NCBI GenBank assembly: GCA_964017185.1
Contig: OZ024883.1
Coordinates: 45,750,997 to 45,814,996 of the forward strand
Length of the DNA: 64,000 bases
From: Rugalucina vietnamica
Taxonomy: Eukaryota > Mollusca > Bivalvia > Lucinida > Lucinidae
Direction: 5' to 3'
Shown: positions 1,518 to 64,000 of the stretch, piece by piece
Layout of the letters: the number at the start of each line of letters is the position of its first letter
Numbering within the stretch: the first letter of the stretch is position 1
Position numbers and translations under genes: made by a program
The notes under the pieces: generated by a model
Databases searched by the model: none
Told to the model about the DNA's origin: nothing
Seen by the model: only the letters and a program-made list of their open reading frames with translations

Positions 1518-3047
1518 CTACTGTGACGGTATTCTTCTAACCCTTTCCAAGAAAATCTGTTTCGCGTACTGATACAAATGTACATCAGCCTCGATATATT
1601 TCATAAATTGAGAATACTGCTGTGGCGTTACCAATTCATCATCATCGTCGTCATTCAACGTCTTAAACGGCCTGCTAAACTTTAAATTAAATGTGTACTG
1701 GAACAGTTTCCTAGTCTCCTCTTGATATTCCGTGAGACCGTAGAACGCCATGTGTTCAACGTTCGCTTTAGCACTTTGTAGAATGAGATTTGTGCGTTCC
1801 CGTGGCTTAACAGCACGTCTATCGTAACAGTGACTTTCCCTGAGATCTGCTAACATCCGAGTTTGTCTGTTGTTAGCCAGGTTATCCTGACAATCCATGA
1901 ACTCATCCAGTGTCACTTCCTCCCAGGTTCTCTCATTGAAACAAGGACGGACGTCAAAGAAGTTGACATTTTTACCGTTGCAGTAAAGTTTGGCGTCTTT
2001 CCAGTGGTTTCCCACCCGGTGGTGCTTCCATTCGCTGAGGTAACGAGCCACTGGATCTCGCAGCAATGTGATGTAGAAGAGCCTACAATAAAACTTTATA
2101 TTGTGAAAAGAAAGATGCATGGATTGTTTACTTTCTTATTCGGCAAATCGGTTGCAAACTCGGAAAAAACAAAACGAGTAATATTTCAAAGTTTTGATTA
2201 CTAGTGATTGAATACGGCATTTTGCAGCTAACAGAATGAAAAAAAAAAAGATGGAGAGTTTAGATAAATATGTCGTGCAAAATTTGTATGAAGTAATAAT
2301 AGATGACGGTCCAAGAATCGATAAGACATCAGACAGTACGTGTTATAAGACATTACAAACTACAAAGTAACATTCACAAAATTAAAGTACACAAACATTT
2401 TTCAAACACGAGCTAACATACCTTCTATTTGGGCTCACACCCTCCTCTTTATTCAAAACGTCTTCCACACATTCATGCAGCATCGTCCAATCAGCGTGCA
2501 GTCCACATGGCCAGCCAACAGAAAACCAACTAAACAGCCAAATATGGCCGGTCTTGGTCTTACATGGACACGGGTTTGTAATCATTTCCTTGGTACAGTT
2601 ACATGGCTTCTCGAGGATCAAATCTCTCATCAAATGTTCATTAAACTTAGTACCTCCAGCTTTCTGGATGTGAAGATAAACTATAGTATCCCTATTAATG
2701 TCAAAATCTTTAGTCTGTAGTAATTCCATTCGTTCTGGTCTTTGATCAAGATGAGGCCGGGGCTCGAGTCCTTTAAGATACATTTCAATCACATCCTTGG
2801 AAAATGTTAGATGGAAATCATGTTCTAAGAACGGTCTACGGAAGTTTATATCATTTGTCAGATTTGCTTTGTACTTAGATACTGGACGACCATTGGTTTC
2901 TATTGGATAGCCACGCATATTGTAACCAGGACGACGTAAAGTTTTAGTTTTTCTGAAGAGGAGAAAATAGACCACAATGGAAATCCCGAGTATTCCGAGA
3001 AATAGCTTCTTGTTACGTCGCATTTCGGAGGCGAGAATTTGCATCAT
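1518..3047 (-). CDS. HS6ST: Heparan-sulfate 6-O-sulfotransferase, two coding exons
   Basis: The enzyme transfers sulfate from PAPS to the 6-O position of glucosamine in heparan sulfate, in the Golgi lumen. Coding exons are 2422-3047 and 1518-2082, joined across a 339-bp GT-AG intron (2083-2421); the split Arg codon restores SPNRR-LFYITLLRDPV. The product is about 396 residues: a short basic N-terminus, one membrane segment near residues 15-31 (type II), the PAPS 5'-phosphosulfate loop IQKAGGTKF (127-135), GLHADW (182-187) carrying the probable catalytic His, and the 3'-phosphate motif RDPVARYLSEW (about 215-225). ANNRQTRMLADL and FYGLTEYQ also match animal HS6STs. A strong splice acceptor at 3077-3079 (TTATTTTTCAG) places the start at 3047, 3044 or 3023 and implies an unseen upstream non-coding exon. 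The tail is short compared with vertebrate enzymes. It looks intact. Paralogue number (1, 2 or 3) cannot be assigned. Confidence 0.93.
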
Positions 3048-14404: not shown

Positions 14405-15718
14405 TCACTTTGAGCCATTGTCGAATCCAATCCAATGTTCAAAATAATAATCTTGTATTTGCGTGTCTAACCATGATCCAGGTCTTGGATAGCCTTTAAA
14501 ATACACAACATCCCCACCCGCCAGCCATGCACCCCACCAACCGAATGATCCTCCAGTAATTATAGAATGATTGCACAGTGATAGAATGGCAATATCAATT
14601 ATTGCTTCGGTATAGTGACTAAATACAACATCTGCCTCTCTTATGTTTTCCCTACACCACGGAATATCATCGCTAACAACAACAAAGATGACACGACCAT
14701 AGCGTGTTCGATACCAATTCATAGCATTTTCGATGTAACCTTTGTCTGCAATAGCAAAACCAAGGTCAGCTGTTCCTTGCACTGTGAAATCTCCTCTTCT
14801 CACATGCATACCAATCCGAATGTCGTCCTCTCTTGTATTGTAAAACAGGAATCTCCGGGCCTCGTGTTTGAACATTGGCCATATTGTTAGTGCTTGTCTG
14901 ACTTCTTCAGTGGCGTTTTGAAAATATTTCCATGACTGTAGATATCCCCAGGTTGTCAGGTTGTAGTTAAGCCATCTTTTATCATGACTCCAGACTTGGT
15001 TAATACACTGTTCTTCGCTAAGCACCATCTCGCGTGTAACATGCATATCTTTAACGATTCCAGTGTCGAAGAAATGTGTTAGCGGGTGACGTGGTTCAAT
15101 AAATGGTTTATACCGTAGTGCGTGTGCTATCCCAATAGTGGCACTAAGTTGAAACATCATGTTACCAAGGCGACTAATAGGCGGGGCACATCGGAAATAC
15201 CGATCGTAGAGGAGAGTTATCTTTTCCTTTTGTTTAGTATTTTCATTGTTTTTGTGTCCGCTTAACAATACACTGTCCATATCTTCTTTTCTGTGGTTCA
15301 TGCTCTGATTGTCCAAAATATGATTGTCTGAGTTTTCCATTATTTCTGGTTCTCTGTCTTTTAACCTATTGTTTCCGTTGTAATGAACACATGTCTTTTC
15401 TATAGTATGCATGTCACTATTATCTGCCGTGTTTATTCCTTCCATTCCTTCAGAATCTTGATGCACACTTTCTGCAGTGTTTTTCTCATATGCTGTCCAA
15501 AGACCATCTTCCGAACTTTCAAACTGTGCTGGTCCAGAATCTTCACTTTGTTTGTGACACATGTCAAAGTCTGTTTCTTCATCTCCTATATTGAGCGAAT
15601 GAAGTTTATCCTCATCTAAGTTTGTGTTACACATTGTTTCCGTTTCTCTATTTTGGTAGCCCAACATATGCACGGGGCAAACGGCAGAGAAAACAACAAG
15701 AATGATCACTCTCATCAT
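14405..15718 (-). CDS. Galactoside alpha-1,2-fucosyltransferase-like protein (GT11)
   Basis: A single-exon gene for 437 residues, intact. GT11 enzymes move fucose from GDP-fucose to galactose in Golgi glycans. Residues 1-20 form a signal-anchor (MMRVIILVVFSAVCPVHMLG). Residues 25-165 are a long acidic, Asn/Ser-rich stem without obvious fold. The catalytic part begins near 174: SRLGNMMFQLSATIGIAHAL (182-201), the GDP-fucose motif GMHVRRGDF (303-311), VSDDIPWCRENI (348-359) and CNHSIITGGSFGWWGAWLAGG (382-402), all matching FUT1/FUT2 landmarks. Vertebrate FUT2 has about 343 residues; the extra length is the stem. The start at 15718 (or the adjacent Met) is chosen because it supplies the hydrophobic anchor. 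Linkage specificity cannot be read from the sequence. Confidence 0.9.
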   Translation of the reverse strand: MMRVIILVVFSAVCPVHMLGYQNRETETMCNTNLDEDKLHSLNIGDEETDFDMCHKQSEDSGPAQFESSEDGLWTAYEKNTAESVHQDSEGMEGINTADNSDMHTIEKTCVHYNGNNRLKDREPEIMENSDNHILDNQSMNHRKEDMDSVLLSGHKNNENTKQKEKITLLYDRYFRCAPPISRLGNMMFQLSATIGIAHALRYKPFIEPRHPLTHFFDTGIVKDMHVTREMVLSEEQCINQVWSHDKRWLNYNLTTWGYLQSWKYFQNATEEVRQALTIWPMFKHEARRFLFYNTREDDIRIGMHVRRGDFTVQGTADLGFAIADKGYIENAMNWYRTRYGRVIFVVVSDDIPWCRENIREADVVFSHYTEAIIDIAILSLCNHSIITGGSFGWWGAWLAGGDVVYFKGYPRPGSWLDTQIQDYYFEHWIGFDNGSK

Positions 15719-16224
15719 GAAAGTTTGTTTTCTTTAATGGTCACTATTCATATATGCATTTTGTTTTATATTATTATTTTTTTTTAATTCCTTTTCGATT
15801 TTGTTAATCTTTTCTGAAAGTCAGTGCACTTCTCTGGCTTATTGACACATAAATCTTTTAATCTATTGTTCATTGGTGCGATTAACCTCTATAGTGCTTT
15901 AGTAAAAGTGCATTGGCAAACAACACATTATCGTAGGAGCGCACGTACTAAGAGAATGCAATTGCGTTCAGCATTCAGTTTGTTGTTCGTTCTGTATTGT
16001 AAACTTTCTCACTACTAAACAGATCACTAAAGAAATTAACACACTCATAAAAGGAATCATTGTAGCGGGTTGATCGTTTTGCTTGGTTACTCATTTGGCA
16101 GAGTGATCACATGTTATATTGGAGTCACAGTTTGTCCCAATGCCCAGTTTCACATTAATATTGGCAAAAATATTATTAAGGAAGTTCCCAGGACAAAAAT
16201 TGCTTCATGAAACTGGGCCCATAG

Positions 16225-48828: not shown

Positions 48829-51800
48829 ATGTGTACATCAGGTTTGTATTTTGTTCTCTGGTCATTGATATATTTAATTGCTTTAAAGAAAAAAGCAAGA
48901 CAAAAGTGTTAATGCAAACACAGTTTACTTGAAGATGACAAATCTGGTAGTTCCATCAGCATTTTTGCTGTTTATCTCCTGAATTATTAAGGCTGCTGTT
49001 TGCCAAAGTCCTTCTGTTAAAATATTATTTTTCTCATTAAAATTCCATAAACCTTGTCTTTTTTTGCAAGTTTAGTCAAAAGACACACAACGCTAATATT
49101 AAACCATTCCTAACCATTCCAACTTCAACAACTTTTTTTCTTACAGGTTTGATCACAACAACTGAAAGTTATAATTGTGACCTTTATGAATTGTTCATTT
49201 TTTAGAACTACAAGATTTGCCCACTAATACTCAAGCCCTCGAAAGGAAAGGAAGCAGTCAATTCAGCCATGAACAATCTGTCCCAGAGCTACAAGGTGAG
49301 AAGCAATTTTCAGGTGATTTGTTTCGGCCTGATTAATTTCTGTGAACACTGATGTTCGGTTTATTTCACACTTTTAGTATAATTATTGATATTTGTGAGT
49401 GCTTCAGGAGTTATAGACCAGATACATTTGTACATGTATATGCTTGCATCTGTTGGACTGGAGTCAGACTTTTACTTTCTAAACATTGTTAGGTGAGCTT
49501 ATAGAGTTTGTGTGGATGATGAAATACTAATATCTTAAGGGTTTTGGTATTTTCCTCATCTGAATGATTGCTTTAGCTTACCGGCTCAACATTTAAAAGA
49601 CACATTGCCATACAGTCACGGACATGACATGAAGAAATTTGCTTTAAAATGCACATGTACTGGGATAAATAAAACATAAAACCAATGTATCGTGTTTTAG
49701 ATCAACAAGGCATTGCCAGTGATCTTCAGTCCCAGAAAATTGACATTCCTGAAGGATGTGATTTAGAACAAGTCTCTTATTCCCAATCCAGGAAGAAGTT
49801 TTACTCACCAGGTTAGAATTCTTCTTACCTATTTGATTAAAATAAACTCTGTGATCTGGAAATGATGAAATGAAATGAAAGCAAAACAGTGCAAACACAG
49901 TCCAGATCTGACATACTGGTGACCCTCCATCATATGTGATCAGTATCCACTTTGTTTGTTCACACAAGTTTGTCATAAGAACATTTAATGTAACTTAGCT
50001 ACAAAAGGACTTCCATGAAGTGTGCCAGATAAGAATTGGCGAATCAAATTCAACATTGAAAATATCAATTACTTTTCAAGATCATTAGACATAATTTAGT
50101 ATAGATCTACTCTTCAGAATTGTAACTACTATCCCATTTTCAGATTTGGAAAGAAGCATGGTAAGGTTAGATTTTAACATGGTGATGATCGCTTTTTGTA
50201 TTGGTGCTGTCTTAACCAAATGCTTTTAATCATTTCTCTATGGTGTTCATCCCAAATCAAAATCTGAAAAACATGATGCTTTTATTTTTCATATTTTAGG
50301 TCAAGGCTTTTCACATGCCTTTGGTGTTGGTTGCTTTTCACTAGATGTTCCTCTTATATCAATAGTGGCTTTATTATATTTCATTCTGTATTACAAAGCT
50401 GACTTGAACTTTCTTCACTATTGTACATCTATTTGATACACATGTACATGTAATGAGAATATTTAATTGAGCTTTCAACAGTGTTTCTATTTAGACGACA
50501 GATGAAAATGAAGTTTGTTTTCTCAGAAATTGAAACAATTTGTGTACCGGTACAAAGAATTTAACCGCTCTGACTTTGTTTACAAAATGCCATGTGACAA
50601 ATCATACAAAAATGGCAGAGCAGCCAGTGGAGACTCAGATTAGCCTGGGATGTCTTCTCAGTCTGAACACTGAGTTTCCCCTGTCCACATGAAGAAAACT
50701 GTAGTAATAGCCACTATACCCACTTAGCAAACAAGAAATTATTAGATTGAGCAGACCTTCAGCATTATCAGAGTTTTAATATAGCCAGGCACATAATATG
50801 GGGCCTAATAGGAAAACCAACATTCTGCATATGCAAAAGCAAAGGCGCAGATCAGCTTCGTGGTAACAAAGAAGCTGATCACACCTTTGTTGTTTTAATG
50901 GATAGTACTATACCTAACCTCTAAACTCGAAATTTCCAGCCTCTAGCCATCTTCTGTGGCTGTACAGCCCAGTTTGTGTCGACCTGGTCTGAAACCACAA
51001 CATTGGTTTTCCTGTGTCATGGCTCGTAAACACTAGACTTCTGTTTCTGAAACATTTGATTTTTATATTACAGAACAAATTTTGGAGATTATGTCCAAAG
51101 TTTCCACCCCAAGTGATAAGCTGCATCACCATGAGCTGTGTGACACAGTAGGATGTTGTTCCCTGTCCAGATTAGAAGCTGAGAGGCAGAAATTAATGAA
51201 GTACAAGTTCCAGCATTCCTGGCTGATGGACACAAAATCCTATTGTAACCAAAATGAAGTCTGGTGGCCAGTGTTTGTGGAAGGGCAAGGTCTCTATTGT
51301 CTGCTGTGTACCAAGCATGATACAGAAAACCCTCAAAATAAAAAGATCTTCAATGAAGAACCCAGTACTAGATTCAGACCGGAGGCTCTTTCTGATCATA
51401 TTGGTACAAAGCAGCATAGAGACGCTGTCACAACTGAACTCATGCAAAGAGTATCATGCTTCCAGAAACAGCTTGACCACCAGGAGAATGTTAAAGATGA
51501 TGCACTTGTTAAAGTCTTCACTTCCATAAAATTATATTGGTTAATGAAAGAAGAGATTGCAAATAGAAAAATAATATCCATGCTTGAAATGCTAGAGCAG
51601 ATTGGCCTTGATGAGGTAAAATATTTTAATCACAGATCAGCAGGATCACTGAGGGAAATGTTTTTAACAATCGGTCAGGCAGTTGAAGATGACATATTGA
51701 AAGGTCTGAAAACAGCTTCTCATTATGGGCTGATGGTGGATGAGGTAACTGATATAAGTGTTCTAGAGCAGATGGTTACATTTATTCAGTTCTATGACAA

Positions 51801-53406
51801 AATTGAAGAACAGGTAAAAGTAGCCTTTCTGTCAGTAGATAACCTTCTAGAAGACTTTGACTCAGCAAATTCTGAAGCTATCAGCTCTATGATCTTGAAC
51901 ACTCTAAAGGAGTTTGAACTTCCAACAGAAAAAAAGGCCTCCTTTGTATCTGATGGAGCCAGTGTTATGATAGGAAAAAATAATGGTGTAGCTGTACGAC
52001 TCAAGCGAAATGCGAATTCGAAGATGATAAATATTCACTGTATATGCCATCGGCTTGCACTGGCCTGTACAGATACACTGGGGGACATATCCTATATCAA
52101 ACAGGTGCAATTATGGCTTCTACAACTGTGGAGGTTATTTGAAAATTCTCCAAAGAAGCTGGCTGTTTACTTGAAAACGCAACTTCAGATGAAGTCTGTC
52201 ATGCTATCTAGTGAAAAAAGCCGTGAGAAAGCAGCAAAACGCCTGAAAAAAGCATGCCAAACCCGCTGGCTTTCTTTTAATGAATCTGTTCAGGCTATAA
52301 TACTTGATTATCCATCAGTTCTGCAGTCTCTTACTCAGTTAAAAGATGAAGATGCTGCTGCATCAGGTCTTCTTACCAAGATGAACACCTTTAAATTCCT
52401 AAGCGTTGTCTATATCTTGTCAGAAGTCCTCCCCCATCTTGCAATTCTCAGTAAATCATTCCAGAGAGGGGTTATAGATTTTTCACAAATATCCCCATGC
52501 ATTGAGAATACCAAAGACAGGCTGGATGCACTTATAGATAACAGTACACCACAAAAAAGGCTCATTTCTGACTTGCAAGATGGTGGCAGACTTCAGCTGC
52601 TGGGGGTCTCAAATATAAATGCCAGCCCCAATAATCTGGCTGAAATGTCTAATACTCTTACAAAGTATGTTGAGTCCCTTAAAGTCAATATTGATAGACG
52701 CTTTGAAGAAAGTCTCCCAATATTGACTGCAGCACAGATCTTTGACCCCCTTAAGCTACCAGCAAGATGTCATCCTGCTTTCAAACTCTATGGTCAGCGT
52801 CAAATTTCAACCCTGGCAGAGCATTTTGCCCCTGAAAATGAAAAAGAAAGCATGACAGAGGAGCTTTCAGCTGAATGTGGTAAGCTAAAATATGACATGC
52901 TTAATTGGAAAGGAGACATTTTAGAAAGTCAGCAATCTTCTTCAGTGGATTGTGAACCAATTCCTCCAGTCACTTGGTGCCTTCAGAAACTAATGCAGCT
53001 TGAAGCATTTTATCCACAGATGAGCAAGATTGCTGACATTCTATTATCTTTGCCCGTTTCAAATGCCTGGCCTGAAAGAGGAGCCAGTGCAATCAAACGT
53101 TTGAAAACACGACTGAGGTCAAGCATTAGGAATGACATGTTGCAGGCCCTTATGCAGGTATCTGTGAATGGCCAAGAAACCACAACAGAAAAAGCCAAGT
53201 CTGTAATCAAAACTGCAGTGACAATGTGGCTGAAGAAAAAACCTAGAAGAAAACTGCCACAGAAAAAGCAAAATGAAAAACTGGTGATGGATGCAGGAGT
53301 TCAAACTGAGCCTGTAAACCTGACTCAACAGGAATTTGCAGAGCTTGTCAGAGATGAAATTCAGCTCTATGCCAAAGCTGTGCAACTTCTCACCACCTTC
53401 ATCTGA
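48829..53406 (+). CDS. hAT-transposase-derived protein, KIAA1586/ZNF862 type, four coding exons
   Basis: Segments 48829-48841, 49206-49295, 49701-49811 and 51074-53406 splice with GT-AG and phase 1 at every joint, giving an open frame of about 848 residues. The large exon has a zinc finger (YCLLC...SDHIGTKQH, about 146-186), a hAT RNase-H core with candidate acidic residues in MVDEVTD (D294) and FVSDGASVMIG (D365), the CxxH motif CICH (394-397), CQTRWLS, and the C-terminal dimerisation block PVSNAWPERGAS (near 740) with its conserved Glu. No stop or frameshift is seen. A polyadenylation signal AATAAA is at 53577. A MITE (50799-51027) lies in the last intron. Coding-like sequence continues upstream of the proposed Met (SSPNDTCTSDSSEPPAKK) to an in-frame TGA at 48754, so the true start is uncertain. 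It may be a domesticated host gene or an intact multi-exon transposase. Confidence 0.82.
50799..51027 (-). repeat. MITE family A, copy in the hAT-gene intron
   Basis: In reverse orientation it carries AGGAAAACCAACATT at one end and CATTGGTTTTCCTGTGTCATG at the other. The central hairpin AGCTTCGTGGTAACAAAGAAGCT is typical. It ends about 45 bases before the acceptor of the large exon. Confidence 0.85.
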
Positions 53407-53599
53407 TGATGATTGGTCTGAAAGTGAATGTTAACCTAATAAGGGTATGCATTTTATTACTAGCTAGCTTCACTTGTGTTTTGAAAGTGCATTCAGATTG
53501 CTTTGGACATCATAAAAAAAACCAGAGGACCAGTGATCCTGCAAACGCTCACCTGAGGTCTTTCATATAAAACACTAATAAATAGAAAGCTATCAACTG

Positions 53600-53785
53600 T
53601 TCTGTGAGGACGTTCCGGTGCAACCAAAGCCTCTGTGACAGAGCATGTTGGTTAAGCTACTCCTGAAGATCCTGAGTTCAATCCCAGGTTTCTACAGTCT
53701 TTTGTCAAGACTAAAAAAGTAAACTCTGAATCAATATGCCCTTAGCTATTGAGTGGGACATAAAACATGAAATTAACTGACCAAA
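53600..53785 (+). repeat. SINE relic after the hAT gene
   Basis: A B-box-like TGAGTTCAATCCCAGGTTT is followed by the shared tail TTGAGTGGGACATAAAACAT. It lies in or just past the 3' untranslated region. Confidence 0.55.
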
Positions 53786-55455
53786 TCTGATGAAAGATTT
53801 GTATTACCTTCAAACTGTGCCAGTTCTTGTCAGCATTTCATTCAATATAAAATCTACTTGACATATGCTATTTTGTTTCATATTTCATGAATGCTGTAGA
53901 TGGTCGGCAGAAGTAAATTGTTGCATTTTTGTTATTTTATACCTCATCTTTTTGAACATTATAATATTAAGCACCTCTAAAATTAGTTAAACCCAAATTA
54001 CAGTAAACTTATATTGATGTGCATTCAAAGATGTTACTTTTACTGTGGTTCTCCCTAGTTTATGTTTTGTTGTAGAGTTTGGTCACCTTTTGGGAAACAG
54101 CTGTTCACTCTGCTTACCATATTATGTTGTCCTTGTATCCGTACCTTTTTGTAAATTTCCTTGTTTACTATATGTTTTTATACTTTGTTCTCATTGTGCC
54201 AGTGATGATCATTGCTTTAATACCTTCTACTTCTCTGTCCTTTCATATTCAACTTTGTAATCAATAGGTCAAAATCAACCAAGTGTCACCATTTCAACAG
54301 TCAAGCCAAATTAGTTGCTGCAGTTGGAGTTTCAGTGAAAACAACAAGTTTCTTTATTCAATACTTTTTAATAGTGTTCTATTAAAATTCATTAACATCA
54401 GACACTTACAACTAAAACACAAAAATACTACACAAATGAGAGCTATTGTAATCTAATGACAACATTTAAAAAAATGAAGGAAAAAAAGAAGAAACTTAAT
54501 CCTAAATCTTGAATGATAGATGTAGAAGTCCTGAGACTGTGTCTATAACATTAAGCACCAGAAAACATTCCAAGACTGAAGTTTTGCTAGTACATTTCTG
54601 TGACTAAAATAGATACCTTGTAAAATCCAATGTAATGGCACAGTTTAACACAATCTTACAATTATACTAGAGTAGACCACAACATGGAAAATAGGTAATG
54701 TCGCATTATTACTGGACAATATATTCATGAACTTGTCAATGAACATAAGTCTGTATGCAAGTTTTCACATAACAAAATACAAATACATGCACTGATTGGA
54801 TATTTCTATTATTTTTTTTCAATTTAACATTTTCAAGTTCTTCATTTTCATTTAAATCTATATACCATATACCATGTACATATTTGCAAATTATATATTC
54901 TTTCTATTATGATGTACATTATAGTCAACACCAAATCAAGCTCTGTGTAACTATGCTTTTGTGGATCAACATGAGAATCTGTCCAAAACTCACAGCCATC
55001 CATTAATTGCCAGATTCTTTAAAAATAAAAAAGCACTGCCACTTGCTGTTCATCACAATATAATAATATATTTTTGCAGAACCCTGAAACAAAGCATATC
55101 TGCTTGCCAAACCTTTATACATTATCTATATAAAACTATGAAGCACTTGCTATATCAGTTATCACCGTATCATAACAATGACATTTTACAATGCATCAAA
55201 CTCACAGCTTCCTTTAATAAAATTTAGTTTACTGTATATTTGAGATTCTATTTAAATAAGATGTTATAGTCACAGTCTCATTAATTCTACATCTTATTTG
55301 AGAAAACATTACAAAAAAGTTACTATTTGACTCATACATAAAAAGAACACATTAGGAGAATTTCTCAGTGAAATGTGAAAAATTGAGAAATTATCCTAGT
55401 GTTTATGATCTATTCTCTCCAGAATTTATATTTGAGAATATTTTAAAAAAAAAAA

Positions 55456-55493
<38 letters not shown>

Positions 55494-55823
55494 TGGCAAC
55501 CCCAAATCTTGCTAAACCACCAACTTTAACCTAGTGGGGTTTCGCCCTGCAATTTTTCTCTTCAATTTTCTACGCTGTAATGATACAGAAGTTGAAAAAT
55601 TTTAGAGATAAAGTGATTAATCTGAACCAAGTAACAATTTAATAGCTAACCTTAGTGAATAACACTATTAAGTTCATAAAAAATTCAGCTTTCCATCTTT
55701 GTGGGATTATGAATTTGCCATTATAGAGAGATTATTTGTTCAGAAATTTTTAGGGTTAACACTGGTTGTACTGTACCAATTATTGAACAGTTATTCATGT
55801 TTTGCGTCACCTCATTTGAATAT
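53786..55823. other. Intergenic between hAT gene and Helentron
   Basis: It holds a weak repeat D copy (54050-54155), a poly-A tract (55441-55491) and a possible hairpin near 55515-55545 (AAACCAC...GTGGGGTTT). That hairpin could belong to the 3' end of the Helentron, which must lie somewhere left of 55824. No coding region is recognised. Confidence 0.45.
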
Positions 55824-56655
55824 CTATTTGTCTAAGGCATGATATTTAATTTTATGATCAGACCAGTAAGCCTCAATGACATCACAAAATCCTTCAGAAT
55901 TTGAAAATATCAAATCTAGTACTGACCCAGAGTCAGTTGTGCATTGTTTAATATGTTGCATACATCCAAATAATGTCTCCACAAAATCCACAAATCCTGT
56001 ACTGGCACCATCTATCTGTATGTTGAAGTCCCCTAATATGACTAATTTAGCATTCAGATCAATAACTGGCCTAAGATGACAGTGAATTTCATTTCTAAAA
56101 TCAGTCTGTGAACTTTTTGGGTATTTGTACAACACAACAACTTGAACATAACCTCGTTGAATGCTGAATGTGCCAGTGAATATGAATTCAAATGACTTAC
56201 ATTGCATTTTCACGACTTTCTGAATCTGCAAGTACTCCTTTACATATAATGCAAGTCCATGGTATGGTCTGTTGTTTGCCTCTTTTATTGTATCATCAAG
56301 CCTAACAAGTCTAAACCGCTTCAGGGCAAAATGTACATTTTCATCCCTACTACATAACCTTGTTTCAGCAAATCCAATGATATCTGCTGCCAATACATTT
56401 GGTTAAGATTGAACATCCTTATAATGTTTATGCAAGGATCTAGCATTATTGAATGCGATTTTGGTTTTGTCTGAACCAATTTTATACAGCGGAACATAAC
56501 ACAGTTCTAAGGCAGCATCTGTGCGTAGCCTTTGCATCTCTATATTCACATCATCATCTAATGCCCTAGCAGCTTCATTCATATTCAGTATATATAAATC
56601 TTCCAGCTTTTTCACTCTACTAAAAGCAACATAGTGAATGTGTGGTATTTTCCTT
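55824..56655 (-). pseudogene. Helentron endonuclease domain (APE/exo-endo-phosphatase fold)
   Basis: Continuous with the helicase C-terminus (HIHYVAFSRVKKLEDLYI, then basic linker), it reads KIAFNNARSLHKHYKDVQS, a stop at 56403-56405, then LAADIIGFAETRLCSRDENV. Motifs of the fold are the Asn of FNNARS, the Glu of AETRL, LGDFNI, VLDLIFSNSE and YWSDHKI near the end. This nuclease resembles those of non-LTR retrotransposons but is the C-terminal domain of Helentron proteins. The single stop splits an otherwise open domain of about 270 residues. Confidence 0.85.
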
Positions 56656-57639
56656 GTTTCCTATGGGACAAATCAACAACTACCTTGTCAACTGTTGCAC
56701 CTTCAGCTTTGTAGACTGTTTTACCTGAAGCTGGTGTCACTGGAAATTGGCTTCTCTGAAATGTTTTGTAATTATGTATAAATGTTCGCTGTGTTTCAAA
56801 TACAGGTGTCCAGTCTGCATGAATGCTTGAGTTGTAAAATTTTCTGTTTTTCTCACGTGTTGCTCTACCAACCCGAGGGTCATCAAATAATACCCAAATA
56901 ATGCTCGGACGGTTGGTTCCTTCCATCCACCTGAAGTCAATGTGTTTTACCACACCAGTAGCACCATTGGTTAAACCATCTTCTACATCTACATTAGCTG
57001 TATGAACAACAATCATTCCAACAACTACCGTCAATGATTTCTTTAGCTGACCTGTTTGTCCATAGTCCTTTGGGAGCTTATCAATCAAGGACTGGTGCCT
57101 GTTGGCAGGACTGTTTGCTGAGACAACACTGTCATGGCATGATATCACATACTTTTCTCCTGGCAACTGACTCAAAATAGTGTCGTTGTGTTGGTCTACG
57201 TAATAATTCTGTGCAAACAAATGAAGAGCATCCTTTGGATAATCACCAGTTTCACGGTCAACAACACTTGTCTGCAGTTTTTGTTTGTCTTCCTCTGTCA
57301 TTTCATTCAACCGAAGTCGGTTTAATAACTGTGCGAATGCTAGATCGTCTTTCTGTCTCATGATATCAACCAATTCATACATTGTAAAGAGCTCTTTCCA
57401 TAAGTTCATTCCCAGAGAAGATGCTCCCTTTTTCAAATCAAGACTTATCAAGTAATCACCTACTGGCTTAAGTTGGTAGAGATCCCCAACAGCGATAACA
57501 CTCAAACCACCAAAAACTTCTTTTGTTCCCATCAGCTGCTGTAAGCGAGTGTCAATAAAGCTTAGTGTCATGTTCCCTACCATTGATATTTCATCAATAA
57601 TGATAATTTTCAGATGTCTGTATTTAATTCTGAATGTAT
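56655..57639 (-). pseudogene. Helentron helicase, C-terminal half
   Basis: It starts at the insertion boundary with NTFRIKYRHLKIIIIDEISM (Walker B DEIS), followed by GGLSVIAVGDLYQLKPVGD, MRQKDDLAFAQLLNRLR, VVVGMIVVHTANVDVEDGL, TNGATGVV and KTVYKAEGATVDKVVVDLSH. These are PIF1/RecD-like superfamily 1B motifs. A frameshift near 56655 separates it from the last helicase motif (HYVAFSRVK), which continues into the endonuclease frame. Confidence 0.88.
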
Positions 57640-57643
57640 TTAA

Positions 57644-58587
57644 GGATGTTCGCTGCTAACATTTGACATTTCGGAACTTCCGGTTTTTCTTTTCTTGAAT
57701 ATCTCGTAAACGGTTGCAGATATTTTCCTAATATTTTATATTTGGATACATATTGATAATATGCATCAATTGAGCCATGAAAATTGTCAATCTAAGGAAC
57801 TTCATTTTTTCACCCCATTTTCTGCAACTTTTCAGAAAATTTTAGTTGTCAGTAAAATTCAGGGGGTAGGGTAGATTAAACTTGAATATTACACATCTTC
57901 AAATTAATTGCACTAGTTCGATGTTTATTTTAGCAGCAGTGTATGTGTACATGGTCTTCTAAGTCATTCTTTGTGTCTTTGGTGTGCTGGTTTGAAAATT
58001 TAAGGTGGTTTTATGACATGGGCTTTTAGAAACAAAACAGACGAAAAAAGGCCGAAAATGGCGATTTTCATGTTGTTGGTTCTCTCTTATATGCGCACTA
58101 CCCTATATATTTCTTTCGTTTATTCGAACAATATTACCAAGTTCTATGTTGTGTGAAAATACAAGAAAAAGTTTGAATCAACAAATATGGGTTTGGTACA
58201 TTTCAAAATATTGAATTTTTCCGACTTTTCAAGTATGGGGGTAGGGTTAGAAAAGGAATCGTAAAATTTTGTCATCCACTCCAAGTTGCAAATTTTTCTA
58301 TGCTTTTGGTCCAAAATTGTCTGCGCTACGTAAATATTGTGACTTTTGAAAGCATTCTAGGTGTATTTTTGTTCAAGACAGGTATATTTCAAAGAATCAT
58401 AAATTAAATTAATTTTACCAAATTTAAAACATGGTGCTCAGAGGTCTCATTCAGAGGCCTGTAGCTTGAAAAAATGCACACTACCCTATATTTATTTTGT
58501 TTTCAAATGTCTTGTGTTGTATTTTGGAATCAAAAAAGAGTGGTTAGAAAAAAAGTTTGAATACTTTTTCATTGGCAGCGAACATCC
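57644..58587. mobile_element. 944-bp TTAA-flanked element inserted in the Helentron helicase
   Basis: The ends GGATGTTCGCTGC and GCAGCGAACATCC are perfect inverted repeats, with TTAA immediately outside each (57640-57643 and 58588-58591). Removing the insert and one TTAA restores the helicase reading from SADEL to NTFRIKYRHLK without frame change, so both boundaries are exact. TTAA targets suggest a piggyBac-type mobiliser. The interior is non-coding with several CTACCCTATA and GGGGGTAGGGT words. Confidence 0.93.
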
Positions 58588-58591
58588 TTAA

Positions 58592-60893
58592 CTCATCAGC
58601 TGAAAGATGATTGCTTCCCTTTTGATACATTTTCCTGTGGAATGCAGAGTAAATGGTTTGGCCACTAATATTAAAAGCAGCAAACCCCATGTATGCACAC
58701 AGCAGAATTCTCTTATCATCTGGATTTTCTCCATCTTTCAAATTCAAAATCCTGAACAGACTTTGGTAAAGAGCTCGAATCACTACTGATTTACCAACAC
58801 CTGCCCCTCCTGTAAGAAAAGCATAGACCGGCTCATCTTTACATTTGATCCAGTGCACAATATGGTTAAAGAATTCTCTTTGTCTCAAATTAAGACTTCT
58901 GAGTAGTTGTAAGTATTCATCTTCTGGTAATAAAATGCTACTAGTTTCTACTGGGGGCACTGAGCAAGTAGACTGTAGTTCTATGCCAATATCATAATGT
59001 CTCTGCTCCACAACTCTGCTTGGGTTAAAACAAACAAACTTTTCTGACTCTCCTGTCCCTTCTTCTTCTGCTTCCCTATTTTCTTGCTCTGCATTTGGTG
59101 CAATTTGATCATAGTCCCTTTCCTCAGCTTCCATCATTTGCCGTGCAAGCTCAAGTTCTTCCGCATGGTGCTCATACTCATTTCTTTTGGATATCAATGA
59201 TGTCTGTACAGACTCATAGTGAGCTTCATATGTATCAAAAGAACCTATCAAATCTTTTTGTTCATTTCGCCACGGTACAAAAAGCATAAGCTGCTCTCTG
59301 AAGTAATTTTCTGGGTCCTTCTTCTTGTTGTATTTCACATACCTTATTATTCTTGGGACTTTTCTTTTCTTGTATTTTGTTCCATTTTTTGCTTTGAACA
59401 GCAAGTCTGAACTTTGACTGTTATCGTTATCCAAGCTGTCATGACCTTCATCCTCAGAGCTACTGGCAAAACTGTCATCATCATTAGTTTCATCAATTTT
59501 ATCTGGTAGTCTATTTCCTTTCGGATAAGTAATGTCAATCTTTGAAACATAGTCAGCTAGGCAAAATTTCCCAAGCTGCCTGGGTCTTTTAGAATACCTC
59601 TGTATTACATTTTGTGATTCTATATCTGTAGATTCAGCTGGAAGTTCATCAAGAGCAGCTTTTGGCTTAAGCAGAAAGATTCTTTCTTCTGGTATAGATG
59701 TATTGATGAAAACAATATCCCTTGTGCACTTTGTCAAAGGAATTTGCAGATCAAGATATACAGCCTCTTGAGCACTAACCTCCACACAGTTTGAAAATAC
59801 ATTCCCAATATGCCGGACTTGTTTCTTCAGGTCAAGATTTCCTCTTCTAGCCTCTTTTGCGGCTGCATCAAGTTGTGCACTCATTCCTCTTTGTGATTTA
59901 CTTATATAACCAACTATATATAAAGCACATCCGTATGGTTCAAGAACAATCTGAATGTCAAGATTGGCTTTCCAGGCAAGAAGTATGTTTTCATTAAATG
60001 GATTTATCCTCATGTCTTTTGTTTCACGTTTTAAGAAAACCTTTGGTGCTTTCAAAGAGCTTTTGATGCAACAAATGTAGTCTTCAAAGTCCATTTTAGC
60101 AATGTTTTGTAGAAATTCCTCAAATGTCATATCTCCAGTTTCTTTACACTCATTCATTGCTTTCTGGAGCTCTACATTCTTCTTTTTGTACTTGTCAACA
60201 TTCTCTTCAAGAGGGTACAACAACATAGTTCTCGGCAATGGTGGCAATGGAAATCCAAACCTACAAATTGGTTTACCTTTTTTCCTGCAGGTTCTAGAAT
60301 GTTTGTGACTTTGAAGGTTAACAAGATTTGCTGTCTTCTCATCATCAGTACTGCAAGTGAGATACTGATCAACAAACTGAATTATTTCGTCTTCAGAGTT
60401 TGTTTCTAAAGTAGGAGCATTTTCTACCCAAACAAGCATATGAATATGAGGAGAGCCACGCTGCTGAAACTCAACTCTATAAAAATAATCACGAACCTTT
60501 CCTATTGGCTCACAACTGCTCTTTAGAATTGTACTGAGGAATTCTTGAACTCTATGATCAAAGTACCTTGAACATGTAACTGGGTCTTTCTGGACTAGCT
60601 TTGTTTTCTCTTGCCAAGTCAGATTTTCTTATTCTTTTTCAGAATATTCAATACCATCATTCAAGTTTGCTAACATTCTCAACCGATCTGTCCATCTAGT
60701 ATCAGCGGCTGACAATGACATAAACCAAGTAGGCAAGGAAAGTTGCCTTATCATTGCAAAAATGTCTTTTTTGCGCATTTCCAAATAGGCTGGTGAGTTT
60801 CGCAGTTGGCGAAATATATAATAGCCTTCATCAAGATTTACAAGTTTATCCAAATAATTTGAATCTCTAGCTTCAGCTGCTGTAATTTTTTTT
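58592..60893 (-). pseudogene. Helentron Rep (HUH) nuclease and helicase N-terminal half
   Basis: The segment opens KITAAEARDSNYLDKLVNLD and LPTWFMSLSAADTRW. After a stop at 60629-60631 it gives ENLTWQEKTKLVQKDPVTCS, then the Rep motif FYRVEFQQRGSPHIHMLVW with the HUH metal-binding His pair. The Tyr-containing motif YGCALYIVGYISKSQRGMS follows (near 59900). A long acidic linker leads to the PIF1 helicase with LNLRQREFFNHIVHWI, Walker A LTGGAGVGKSVVIRAL and AAFNISGQTIYSAFH. Rep would nick and rejoin DNA; the helicase unwinds it. Apart from the one stop the segment is open for about 760 codons. Confidence 0.9.
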
Positions 60894-61320
60894 GCCTTTC
60901 TTTTTACACCTTCTAACAGCTAAGTTAACTTTGTCACTGATTTGTTTCATTTGTAGCTTTTTGTGTTTAAAGAATATATTTGGGACTGACTGTGCAGCTC
61001 TCCTGTCAACACTACGCAATTCCCATTTTACAATGTCACTATAATGTACTGGAACTAATCTTTCATCCTTTCGAGGTGGTGTCTGGCCACAAAATATAGA
61101 TGGAAAGCATAAGTACTCTGCATCTTTATCTTGATATAAACTTAAAGGGTGCTGACCCTCACCTGGGGCAAAAGTGAAAACTTTGTCACACTTATTGTCA
61201 ATATCAGCATCATCTACTAATGTATCAATATTGCCAACATGATCATTTGCATCTATCTCACTGTAATGATCAGAATCATAGCCATTTGAAGCTTCAATGT
61301 CATTTTCACTTTCTCTTCTT
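60894..61320 (-). pseudogene. Helentron linker and start of the Helitron-like N domain
   Basis: In a frame shifted relative to its neighbours it reads ESENDIEASNGYDSDHYSEI, then FTFAPGEGQHPLSLYQDKDA, EYLCFPSIFCGQTPP and VHYSDIVKWELRSVDRRAAQ, then MKQISDKVNLAVRRCK. This is the usual entry to the Helitron-like N region (PGEGQ.PLS...D...E.L.FP..F). Frameshifts bound it at about 61320 and, in a run of A (plus-strand T) near 60893, at the other side. Confidence 0.82.
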
Positions 61321-63325
61321 GTACCTGTTTTTCATTTTGTGTATTCTCTTTGTCATTAGGCTGTTCTCTTGACACTTCTAAAAATTCTCTGACTGTATCT
61401 TCTGCACTTTCACTAACGTCCCGAAACCAGCTTTCATCAGCTACTATGCCAGACTTTTTGTATAACTCACTGTTGTTCATTAGCCAATGTAGTGCAGCCA
61501 AAACTCTTAATGGTCTTACATTTTCTTTAAAGTCAACCTTTTTGTAAGAAAGCTTCTTTTTTAGTTGGATGGCAACAGTAAAATTTTCATCCATTGGCCT
61601 AGGAAGACTGTTTATAGTAGGCTGGATATCAACAGGCACATTGATAACATTTCCTTTTAAGGAGTACTGGCCACCACGAGGAAGTTCCCTAATTTGCATA
61701 AATGGAATACGAAGTGCTATTAATCTTTCTTCCAACTGATGCAAATTTAGTTCTACAGGTTTGTTTGGCCATTTGAAGCCATTGGCTACTGATAATTTTG
61801 GACATTTCCGTTCTCGTAAAGCACTCAAGCAAGTATGACAAACCCATTCTTCATTATTTACAGACATAAAATCTGTGCAATACTGCCGTTTACTTTCTTC
61901 AGCAATATGAGTGTTCTTTAACATTGAAACACTTTTTCTAAACCATGTTTGGTGACAACATGTACAAATATATAAGGGGCCAATAGATATATCTAAATGA
62001 AATTGTTTAATAGTTTCTTCAATAGTTTTATAGGCCTTCTGATGAGTTTTATGAGGCAAAGTTTCTGTATCATGCTTGAATCTTTTGCAAGAATCAGTCT
62101 TTCTAGAAATGTCCTTACATTTTCTCTTCTCTTGTCTTATCTGTTGCTTCTTGATTCTTTCACATTCCAGAACAATGGGATTTTTCCTTGCATTTTGTTT
62201 AGAGACATTCTGGTACACTTTCTCTCTTTCCAGAAAAGCAGGACTTACTCTTGCTGACTGTTTTGATTTCTTCTGATACGCAATTTCTTTCATTCTAAAA
62301 ACAGGATCTTGTCTAGCATGCTGCTTTGATTCCATTTCTTGTCTTTTAAAGGCAGGTTCTTTTCTTGCCTCCTGCCTTGATTCCATTTCTTTCCTTTTAA
62401 AAGCGGGGTCTTTCCTTGCATGCTGCTTTGATTCCATTTCTTTCCTTTTAAAGGCAGGTTCTTTCCTTGCATTTTGCTTTGATTCCTTTTCTTTCCTTTT
62501 AAATGCAGGGTCTTTCCTTGCATGCTGCTTTGATTCCATTTCTTTCCTTTTAAAGGCAGGGTCTTTCCTTGCATACTGCTTTGATTCCATTTCTTTCCTT
62601 TTAAAAGCCGGGTCTTTCCTTGCATGCTGCTTTGATTCCATTTCTTTCCTTTTCAAGGCAGGGTCTTTCCTTGCATGCTGCTTTGATTCCATTTCTTTCC
62701 TTTTAAAAGCAGGGTCTTTCCTTGCATGCTCTTTTGATTCCTTTTGATACCTAATTTCTGTATCCTTAAAAACAGAATCTTTTCTTGCTTGCCGCTTTGA
62801 TTCCATTTCTTTCCTTTTAAAGGCAGGGTCTTTCCTTGCATGCTGCTTTGATTCCTTTTGATACCTAATTTCTGTATCCTTAAAAACAGAATATTTTCTT
62901 GCTTGTCGCTTTGATTCCATTTCTATCCTTTTAAAGGCAGGGTCTTTTCTTGCATGCTGCTTTGATTCCCTTTGATACCTAATTTCTGTATCCTTAAAAA
63001 CAGGGTCTTTTCTTGCTTGCTGCTTTAATTCCATTTCTTTTTTTTTATAAGTTACATTTTTTCTGGCCAATTGTTTGAAAGTTTTATAATATTCAGTGCG
63101 ATTACGCTGCTTTCTTTTTTTCAGTAATGATTCTTTCTTTGATTCAAAAGTGTGTTTACCACTCACATTTCTTTGTGTTTTCAGAGCCTGTCGAAATCTT
63201 TGATCTTTAAAATAGCCTTCCATACGACTTATCATTTCATCTTCATATGTCTGTTCTTCGTGATATTTATTTATATGGACTGGCAGGAAGTCAAACTGCA
63301 AGTTAGTATCAGTTTCCAGTTTCAT
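61320..63325 (-). pseudogene. Helentron repeat array, zinc-binding and DUF6570-like region
   Basis: About 690 codons are open. The first 70 residues are followed by roughly 17 tandem basic units, mostly 17 residues (KEMESKQHARKDPAFKR), some 21 residues (KDTEIRYQKESKQHARKDPAF). Cysteine pairs then suggest zinc binding: CTCCHQTWF and WVCHTCLSALRERKCP. The next block, LHQLEERLIALRIPFMQIRE with LPRGGQYSLKGNVINVPVDI, matches the DUF6570 region that accompanies Helitron helicases. The function of the basic array is unknown; it could bind DNA or act as a linker. Confidence 0.82.
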
Positions 63326-63329
63326 GCTA

Positions 63330-64000
63330 TCATAAAATGCATATATATATATATGTAACTAGGTCATCCAAGTTTGAGAAAGTTATTAAACAGGAAGCAC
63401 CATCACTTGATGAAAGTCCATTTTGTCCATGGGAATGAGAATCAAAAAAGGCATACAACCCATTATTTTTAAAAACTGCAGAACATATTGCACCTACAGT
63501 TAATAAGCCACATGATACAGAGGAAAATGCCAACTGCAAGGTAGAGTGAAGTGTTGGTAAGCCGTGATCTTGAGTATCAACAAGAACACCACTTTCAATT
63601 TGAAATTTTTCTAACATAAATTTTCCTAACTCTACTTCAAAATCATCTGGTATTTCTTCTAAGCTCAAAAGCTGGTTAGTGAACTTTCCATCTGTTTTCA
63701 ACTTGCTAATGACAGTTTGATACAGAGCATCCCCTTCATAAAGTACTTTATCTATTATTGAACTATTATCTACATTGTGGGTAAGTGCGTATGACAACAT
63801 ACATAATGCATTACATGTGCACTGATACCCTTTTGACTGTTCAGAAAATCTAACATCATTTTGATGAAAACTTCCAAATACCAAATCAGTGGCATTCCAC
63901 AATGGTTCAGATGATCTTACTGCTTGATAACATGTCACATCATCGACTAAACATGTTTCAAATGTATCACTGTTAAAATGATGTTGAGCTTTAACATTTT
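63330..64000 (-). pseudogene. Helentron N-terminal cysteine-protease-like domain (partial)
   Basis: The frame is open to the window edge (…DTFETCLVDDVTCYQAVRSS), so the start is outside. It reads VFGSFHQNDVRFSEQSKGYQ followed by CTCNALCML, with a candidate catalytic Cys, and later YAFFDSHSHGQNG, with a candidate His, and ASCLITFSNLDDLVTYIY. This Cys...FDSHS layout is that of papain-like/OTU-type or C76-type protease domains found at the N-terminus of some animal Helitron proteins. A short TA run at the 3' end shifts the frame before AFYDSMKLETDTNLQFDFLP. Activity and exact family are inferred. Confidence 0.72.

Follow-up and report, generated by a model that had tools for sequence, protein, structure and literature searches.

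A probable Helentron with a VTD deubiquitinase domain in Rugalucina vietnamica and its likely link to satellite-bearing non-coding elements

Domain map of the Helentron copy

We analyzed a 64,000-nt stretch of the genome of the lucinid bivalve Rugalucina vietnamica (GCA_964017185.1, contig OZ024883.1, positions 45,750,997–45,814,996; hereafter, the window). One region of it is very probably a degenerate copy of an autonomous Helentron, an endonuclease-bearing rolling-circle transposon, with a VTD (herpesvirus tegument-like) deubiquitinase domain in its protein. Eight minus-strand reading frames, spanning 63998 to 55824, gave Pfam matches to Herpes_teg_N, DUF6570, Helitron_like_N, PIF1, and Exo_endo_phos in this order. 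The initial annotation had proposed six modules in one order and one direction, with a basic repeat between the protease and DUF6570. Both points were borne out by the Pfam matches on these frames and by Tandem Repeats Finder (TRF), which identified the repeat as a real tandem array. The limits then assigned, 55824 to 64000, were too narrow: the copy overruns both, with its 3′ end at ~53514–53521 and its 5′ end outside the window. The components were as follows.

53514 to the equivalent of 68105, minus strand: whole element, ~14.6 kb (copies compared with their flanks)
55824–56402, minus strand: AP-type endonuclease, the C-terminal module (Pfam); a stop at 56403 breaks the frame
56403–56660, minus strand: helicase–endonuclease linker, with a frame change near 56657
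56612–57655, minus strand: C-terminal half of the PIF1 helicase (Pfam), also present in intact copies
57640–58591, minus strand: foreign insertion in the helicase, with a TTAA target duplication and terminal inverted repeats
58544–60628, minus strand: C-terminal part of the HUH Rep (FYRVEFQQRGSPHIHM, YIVGYISK) and N-terminal half of PIF1 with Walker A (open reading frames, Pfam)
60629–60919, minus strand: start of Helitron_like_N (Rep; Pfam)
61427–61810, minus strand: DUF6570 (Pfam, 3.3e-22), with a CxCCH zinc-type cysteine cluster upstream
62316–63040, minus strand: basic tandem array of 17- and 21-aa units of the ESKQHARKDPAFKRKEM type (TRF)
63351–63872, minus strand: VTD deubiquitinase domain (Pfam Herpes_teg_N, 1.5e-9; PDB 8add_A)
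63873–64000, minus strand: start of the N-terminal part, which continues outside the window to an ATG at the equivalent of 64706

The Helitron_like_N matches (1.4e-6 and 1.1e-15) were split by the stop at 60629, and the PIF1 matches (1.9e-4, below the cut-off, and 3.4e-9) by the insertion. The endonuclease scored 3.3e-5 for Exo_endo_phos and 2.8e-4 for Exo_endo_phos_2, 0.3 and 6 bits below the respective cut-offs. The Rep resembled Helraiser (7lcc, 2.5e-4), and PIF1 resembled PDB 5o6b (9.6e-18). According to passages of Thomas et al. (2014; PMC4067079), Rep motif 2 of Helentrons has F/Y-x-R before VExQxRG and an S between G and P; the window copy carries both features in FYRVEFQQRGSPHIHM, the Helentron-diagnostic FYR...RGSPH.

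The 0.95-kb insertion in the helicase (57640–58591) is flanked by TTAA at each end and bounded by terminal inverted repeats that are near-perfect, GGATGTTCGCTGC(C/T)AA. TTAA target duplication is the rule for piggyBac-type elements, and the insertion looks like a piggyBac-type miniature inverted-repeat transposable element. We read it as foreign because the uninterrupted site is present in two relatives, L029 (in DNA) and L009 (at the protein level). Two stops (60629 and 56403) and at least four changes of frame (near 63350, 61310, 60895, and 56657) also interrupt the window copy. In other words, its domains are near-complete, as initially claimed, but its reading frame is broken.

Intact relatives, the VTD protease, and the basic array

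The genome (1.09 Gb in 47 contigs) was searched with the window endonuclease domain and for the VTD; 150 of 828 endonuclease candidates and 150 of 297 VTD candidates were scored, and the frame lengths of the endonuclease matches were counted by hand. Open frames of at least 2,400 aa contained 76 of the 150 scored endonuclease matches, one of which (2,574 aa) was listed with a TGA inside the match. Forty-one of these frames were 2,562 aa long. In 27 of the other 35, the frame also contained one of the scored VTD matches, 6.3–6.7 kb upstream; the eight without such a pair are not evidence of absence, because the VTD search scored 150 of 297 candidates. The protein of the intact relatives, ~2,500–2,640 aa, consists of a variable low-complexity N-terminus, VTD, basic array, zinc/DUF6570 region, HUH Rep, PIF1, and AP-type endonuclease in a single open frame, and Pfam found VTD, DUF6570, Helitron_like_N, and PIF1 in order in three of three intact frames. 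Nine 2,562-aa copies from nine places had a coding identity of 99.91–100% in 36 pairs, and eight fetched copies differed from L009 by 2–6 residues, none in the catalytic motifs. Fetched frames of other subfamilies were 2,604, 2,615, 2,643, and 2,526 aa long; L029, whose N-terminus is cut short, was 99.2–99.5% identical to the window copy. The genome thus contains intact homologues in which a single frame encodes the modules and the Cys and His are conserved, the check that the initial annotation had called for.

The AP-type endonuclease is fused in one frame to the C-terminus of the Rep/helicase, and the frame stops after it in intact copies. The fusion is clear even though the Pfam scores fall below the cut-off, and the last 192 aa of L009 are 92% identical to the window endonuclease domain. 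No reverse transcriptase follows the endonuclease, since no frame between 55824 and 53514 is longer than 100 aa. No relatives were confirmed among IMG/VR viral contigs for the VTD or the Rep–helicase alignment. The VTD and Rep families matched in none of 14 control genomes, a result to which we gave no weight.

The Herpes_teg_N match covers positions 1–182 of the 183-position profile. The only PDB match of the window VTD (3.6e-24 over residues 42–215) was 8add_A, a chain named ATP-dependent DNA helicase, which we infer to be the zebrafish Helitron VTD described in passages of Erven et al. (2022; PMC9741609). The catalytic Cys in QCTCNA and the Asp-x-His in FDSH occur in the window copy and in all five intact proteins read. 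Ten of 12 further VTD loci have both motifs, L038 has QCTCNT/FDSH, and L031 has QCVANS/DPH. The divergent VTD of L031 (C1:74506435; QCVANS ... FDPH), in a 252-aa frame, had the best score among the VTD matches scored. By its Cys, its Asp-x-His, and the profile match, the protease is classified as a VTD-type deubiquitinase. It is a cysteine protease of the ubiquitin system, as in OTU-protease Helentrons, but none of the eight window frames matched an OTU family at E up to 1, and an OTU identity was rejected.

The ratio of nonsynonymous to synonymous substitutions (dN/dS) in the VTD was 0.20–0.29 in all six subfamily pairs, compared with 0.09–0.17 in the Rep and 0.42–0.78 in the first 235 residues. 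Purifying selection thus acts on the VTD, with looser constraint than on the Rep. The first 235 aa share 28–42% identity between subfamilies and are nearly unalignable; in L009, L026, L027, and L028, these residues contain subfamily-specific low-complexity repeats (e.g., SPISEWAQSPERRPA, GLNFPKKAEN, and SPPREVAG).

The basic array contains 12–17 counted units, spaced mostly by 17 or 21 residues (the leading spacing is 29 in three of five intact proteins), and differs in unit number between subfamilies. Its K+R content is 29–32% in five intact proteins and 29–33% across the six relatives measured, and it ends ~60 residues before the CxCCH cluster. The same genome contains a second Helentron lineage (L048/L049) with a single frame of 3,542 aa (L049 from 512, L048 to 9140; C12:18215011–18225639); three of the Rep matches listed lie in frames of 3,536–3,542 aa. 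In L048/L049, a basic array with a 46-residue period and 31% K+R ends 36 residues before a CxxC cluster, which is followed by DUF6570, Rep, PIF1, and endonuclease (2.3e-9). The array precedes DUF6570 in both lineages, whereas the VTD occurs in one of the two; the array therefore recurs. BLASTP without composition correction aligned the two arrays at 21% identity (7e-7), a score that biased repeats can yield by composition. In open-licence PubMed Central, no paper pairing "Helitron" with "DUF6570" was found, and wording for the basic array gave only unrelated work.

Divergence between subfamilies changed along the protein. At fourfold sites of residues 243–1167, without the L026–L027 pair, 25 of 35 values were 0.25–0.45 (full range, 0.09–0.62); after residue 1768, they were 0.04–0.26 (L026–L027, 0.02–0.17). 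Synonymous divergence fell from 0.58–0.83 in the VTD (L026–L027, 0.38) to 0.13–0.20 in PIF1 (L026–L027, 0.06). The nearest relative of L028 was L027 in the VTD and PIF1, and L009 in the C-terminal part of the Rep and the endonuclease. These patterns suggest that the N-terminal half (VTD, array, and DUF6570) and the helicase–endonuclease part, where synonymous divergence is several-fold lower, have different histories, and hence that the subfamilies are mosaics. The simplest reading is that the C-terminal part has recombined or been homogenized; misalignment of the repeat-rich half and constraint on codons are alternatives.

Ends, target sites, and non-coding derivatives

Comparison of copies with their flanks placed the following features beyond the coding region.

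53514–53521, minus strand: 3′ terminus, a T-run at the host junction; the same terminal motif marks the limit of homology between intact copies C and D
53526–53540, minus strand: 3′ palindrome, AGGATCACTGGTCCT in the window copy and AGGACCATTGGTCCT in intact copies
53547–53557, minus strand: 3′ subterminal inverted repeat CTCAGGTGAGC, the exact reverse complement of GCTCACCTGAG at the 5′ end
53558–55823, minus strand: 3′ non-coding part, ~2.3 kb, 71–73% identical to intact copies over the aligned parts
window equivalent of 65353–67993, minus strand: satellite-like array of 455-bp units (5.8 units), outside the window, upstream of the ATG
window equivalent of 68073–68105, minus strand: 5′ hairpin end, outside the window, with a microsatellite between it and the array

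From 5′ to 3′, the layout is a T-run abutting AGCTCACCTGAGCCGAAGGCTCACAGGTGAGC, a GTC-type microsatellite, the 455-bp array (4.4 units in copy A), the coding frame, CTCAGGTGAGC, the palindrome, and CTCTGGTT abutting T-rich sequence. The subterminal inverted repeats GCTCACCTGAG and CTCAGGTGAGC are exact and have the length of at least 11 bp that characterizes Helentrons, and the 5′ hairpin folds strongly (z -6.1). In eight of nine ends read, TT immediately preceded the 5′ motif (L006, with TTTTA, was the exception), and in eight of eight it immediately followed the 3′ motif. Copy A lies inside an array of 466-bp repeats, whose neighboring units represent the empty site, a T-run without target duplication, and copy B, on another contig, interrupts a related repeat at the same T-run. 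The targets are those of a Helentron: T-rich, with TT at both ends and no target duplication. Within a 466-bp satellite-like repeat, two element copies, at C1:45484531 and C2:47097160 (L020, L021, and L043), are inserted at an identical T-run. Those 2,562-aa copies that were read through to their ends carry a 3′ non-coding insert bounded by the inverted ends GGTGC...GCACC, with TCCATTCCGGTA repeats (~C1:45498606–45499169 in L043; also in L023 and L024), no counterpart of which was aligned in the window copy. The 5′-end word, searched in open-licence PubMed Central papers, returned only unrelated papers.

When the 5′ end of the window copy was used as a query, 40 of 1,693 candidates were scored, with identities of 94–100%. 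Three of the 40 stood at elements with a listed endonuclease match; the other 37 are candidate derivatives only, the endonuclease candidates having been partly scored. Three of the 37 were fetched, and all were 1.5–2.0 kb long, with a 5′ end, 2.7–3.7 units of the 455-bp repeat, and a 3′ end; no frame in these three loci exceeded 204 aa. They align to the window element over 1.4–1.9 kb at 87–91% and match its last 41–48 bp at ~90%, a stretch below the 60-bp subfamily criterion in passages of PMC4067079. All three derivatives therefore keep both ends of the autonomous element, without its coding part.

This layout resembles that of the non-coding Helentron derivatives (HINEs) of the Pacific oyster. 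As passages of Vojvoda Zeljko et al. (2020; PMC7492417) describe it, Cg_HINE has a 5′ subterminal inverted repeat, a complementary inverted repeat, a GTC-type microsatellite, a satellite-like array, a 3′ subterminal inverted repeat, and a palindrome; we liken the two by layout. Cg_HINE elements are non-coding, whereas the partner found here combines the same kind of ends and array with an intact protein. The autonomous partner of the oyster HINEs was reported as unresolved; the passages of PMC7492417 and PMC7992393 link these HINEs to no coding partner, and those of PMC7992393 report that no autonomous element was detected in the oyster. Autonomous HINE partners are known in insects and a mite, including Culex families with tandem repeats (passages of PMC4067079).

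Because its ends and 455-bp array match the short non-coding elements in three of three fetched cases, the VTD-bearing Helentron is likely to drive the satellite-bearing HINEs of this genome. The match between the ends and array of this autonomous element and those of non-coding elements may be the new part of the finding; in open-licence PubMed Central, no paper was found, by title, abstract, or passages, that links a VTD-bearing Helentron to satellite-bearing HINEs. Taken together, the evidence moderately favors a joint account. The Helentron would autonomously drive these HINEs, carrying its own 455-bp array near the 5′ end and shedding its coding part to give 1.5–2.0-kb copies, and would thereby spread the repeats genome-wide and re-insert into T-runs of related arrays, with subfamilies that are mosaics exchanging or homogenizing parts. 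The oyster genome is rich in Helentron derivatives that carry satellites; in the genome studied here, dozens of long intact frames together with matching derivatives make the link to a coding partner testable.

Known relatives, proposed mechanism, and alternatives

The domain combination, which the initial annotation thought worth describing, is already known. Passages of PMC9741609 report Helentrons with VTDs in their frames from vertebrates, insects, cnidarians, and molluscs and, as here, a VTD with Cys and Asp-x-His in a Helitron frame with a C-terminal AP-type endonuclease. The central claim, a VTD in a Helentron frame, is therefore not new, and the satellite-carrying autonomous partner is a useful new member. 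Unlike the element here, the two zebrafish elements in that study carry two VTDs, or one VTD and an OTU; the available passages contain no mention of basic arrays, element ends, or satellite-carrying derivatives. With the Helentrons and HINEs in passages of PMC4067079, the present element shares Rep motif 2, PIF1, the fused endonuclease, the subterminal inverted repeats, the 3′ palindrome, the T-rich target, and non-coding deletion derivatives. The protease of those Helentrons is an OTU in additional open reading frames, whereas here the VTD is fused to the main protein; the mite Helentron carries an RPA frame.

Our observations on this Helentron concern its anatomy, selection, and traces of recent movement: the order of the modules in one frame, the catalytic residues, the purifying selection on the VTD, the mapped ends, a single T-run empty site, copies that are nearly identical, and non-coding derivatives. 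We infer all enzymatic steps, together with what the basic array and the VTD do. Most likely, the element would work as a standard Helentron in which the VTD shields the transposase, or partners of it, from ubiquitin-dependent clearance. By homology, the Rep would nick and join DNA at the element ends, PIF1 would unwind the strand, and the endonuclease would open the T-rich target; the basic array and zinc region might anchor the protein to DNA or retain it in the nucleus. The VTD would strip ubiquitin chains from the transposase or its partners and so prevent their degradation. The earlier idea that the protease counters ubiquitin-type defence agrees with the published hypothesis. This genome is thus a natural system for asking why a rolling-circle transposon keeps a herpesvirus-like deubiquitinase.

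Several results weigh against the identification of the element as a VTD-bearing Helentron or against parts of it. A single-sequence fold of the VTD had a mean pLDDT of 36.5 and was discarded. None of the 41 2,562-aa frames was among the 150 of 297 VTD candidates scored, and the evidence for a VTD in this group comes from L009 (28.8 bits; cut-off, 25) and eight near-identical copies. Exo_endo_phos was below the cut-off where it was reported (two of three intact frames) and was not reported in L009, and phmmer with the endonuclease against PDB chains gave no match at E up to 1. The 3′ palindrome does not fold significantly better than shuffled sequences (z 0.13 in the window copy; -1.19 and -1.17 in relatives), and the right junction of copy A, the one copy examined, in a paralogous array, is one G short of the expected empty site. 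Finally, the L048/L049 frame gave no VTD or OTU match; the VTD is therefore not essential to the Helentron class. The Cys/His domain expected in intact relatives is accordingly present in close subfamilies but was not seen in this more distant intact lineage, and the protease is optional.

This last point bears on whether the VTD and the basic array might be host-captured passengers that the element does not use. The N-terminal half also varies more between subfamilies than the helicase–endonuclease part, down to the nearly unalignable first 235 aa. Against this stand the dN/dS of the VTD, its retained catalytic residues, and its presence across subfamilies with a synonymous divergence of 0.38–0.83; passengers would be expected to show a dN/dS near 1 or catalytic loss, neither of which occurred in the intact copies read, and we regard this alternative as very unlikely. 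Somewhat less remote, but still improbable, is that the protease cuts the large protein into Rep, helicase, and endonuclease subunits instead of acting on host ubiquitin targets. Its location in one frame with the other modules would suit such a role, which passages of PMC4067079 suggest for the OTU proteases of Helentrons. However, the tested relatives, three zebrafish Helitron VTDs, all cleave ubiquitin, and two of the three also cleave NEDD8 (passages of PMC9741609). Moreover, a search confined to the LxGG-type motif identified no conserved inter-domain site, and the sole such motif in L009 (LTGG) lies in the Walker A of the helicase, so that the polyprotein processing raised by the initial annotation gained no support.

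The single element could also be an accident of neighboring repeats, with the endonuclease coming from an adjacent long interspersed nuclear element (LINE) and the protease from another gene. The window copy by itself, in eight frames and with endonuclease scores below the Pfam cut-off, would allow this. The intact copies refute it: the endonuclease shares the long frames counted above with the other modules, including the VTD in 27 of the 35 examined, and no reverse transcriptase adjoins it. We assign this origin almost no probability, and the single-element reading, which the initial annotation had set against an adjacent LINE, prevailed.

The neighborhood contains other frames. A 789-aa open frame resembling a hAT-type transposase (zf-C17orf113 and Dimer_Tnp_hAT; window 51037–53406, plus strand) adjoins the 3′ end of the Helentron. 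A Sulfotransferase family 2 exon (1518–2135, minus strand) and a glycosyltransferase family 11 frame (14405–15733, minus strand) belong to ordinary animal genes.

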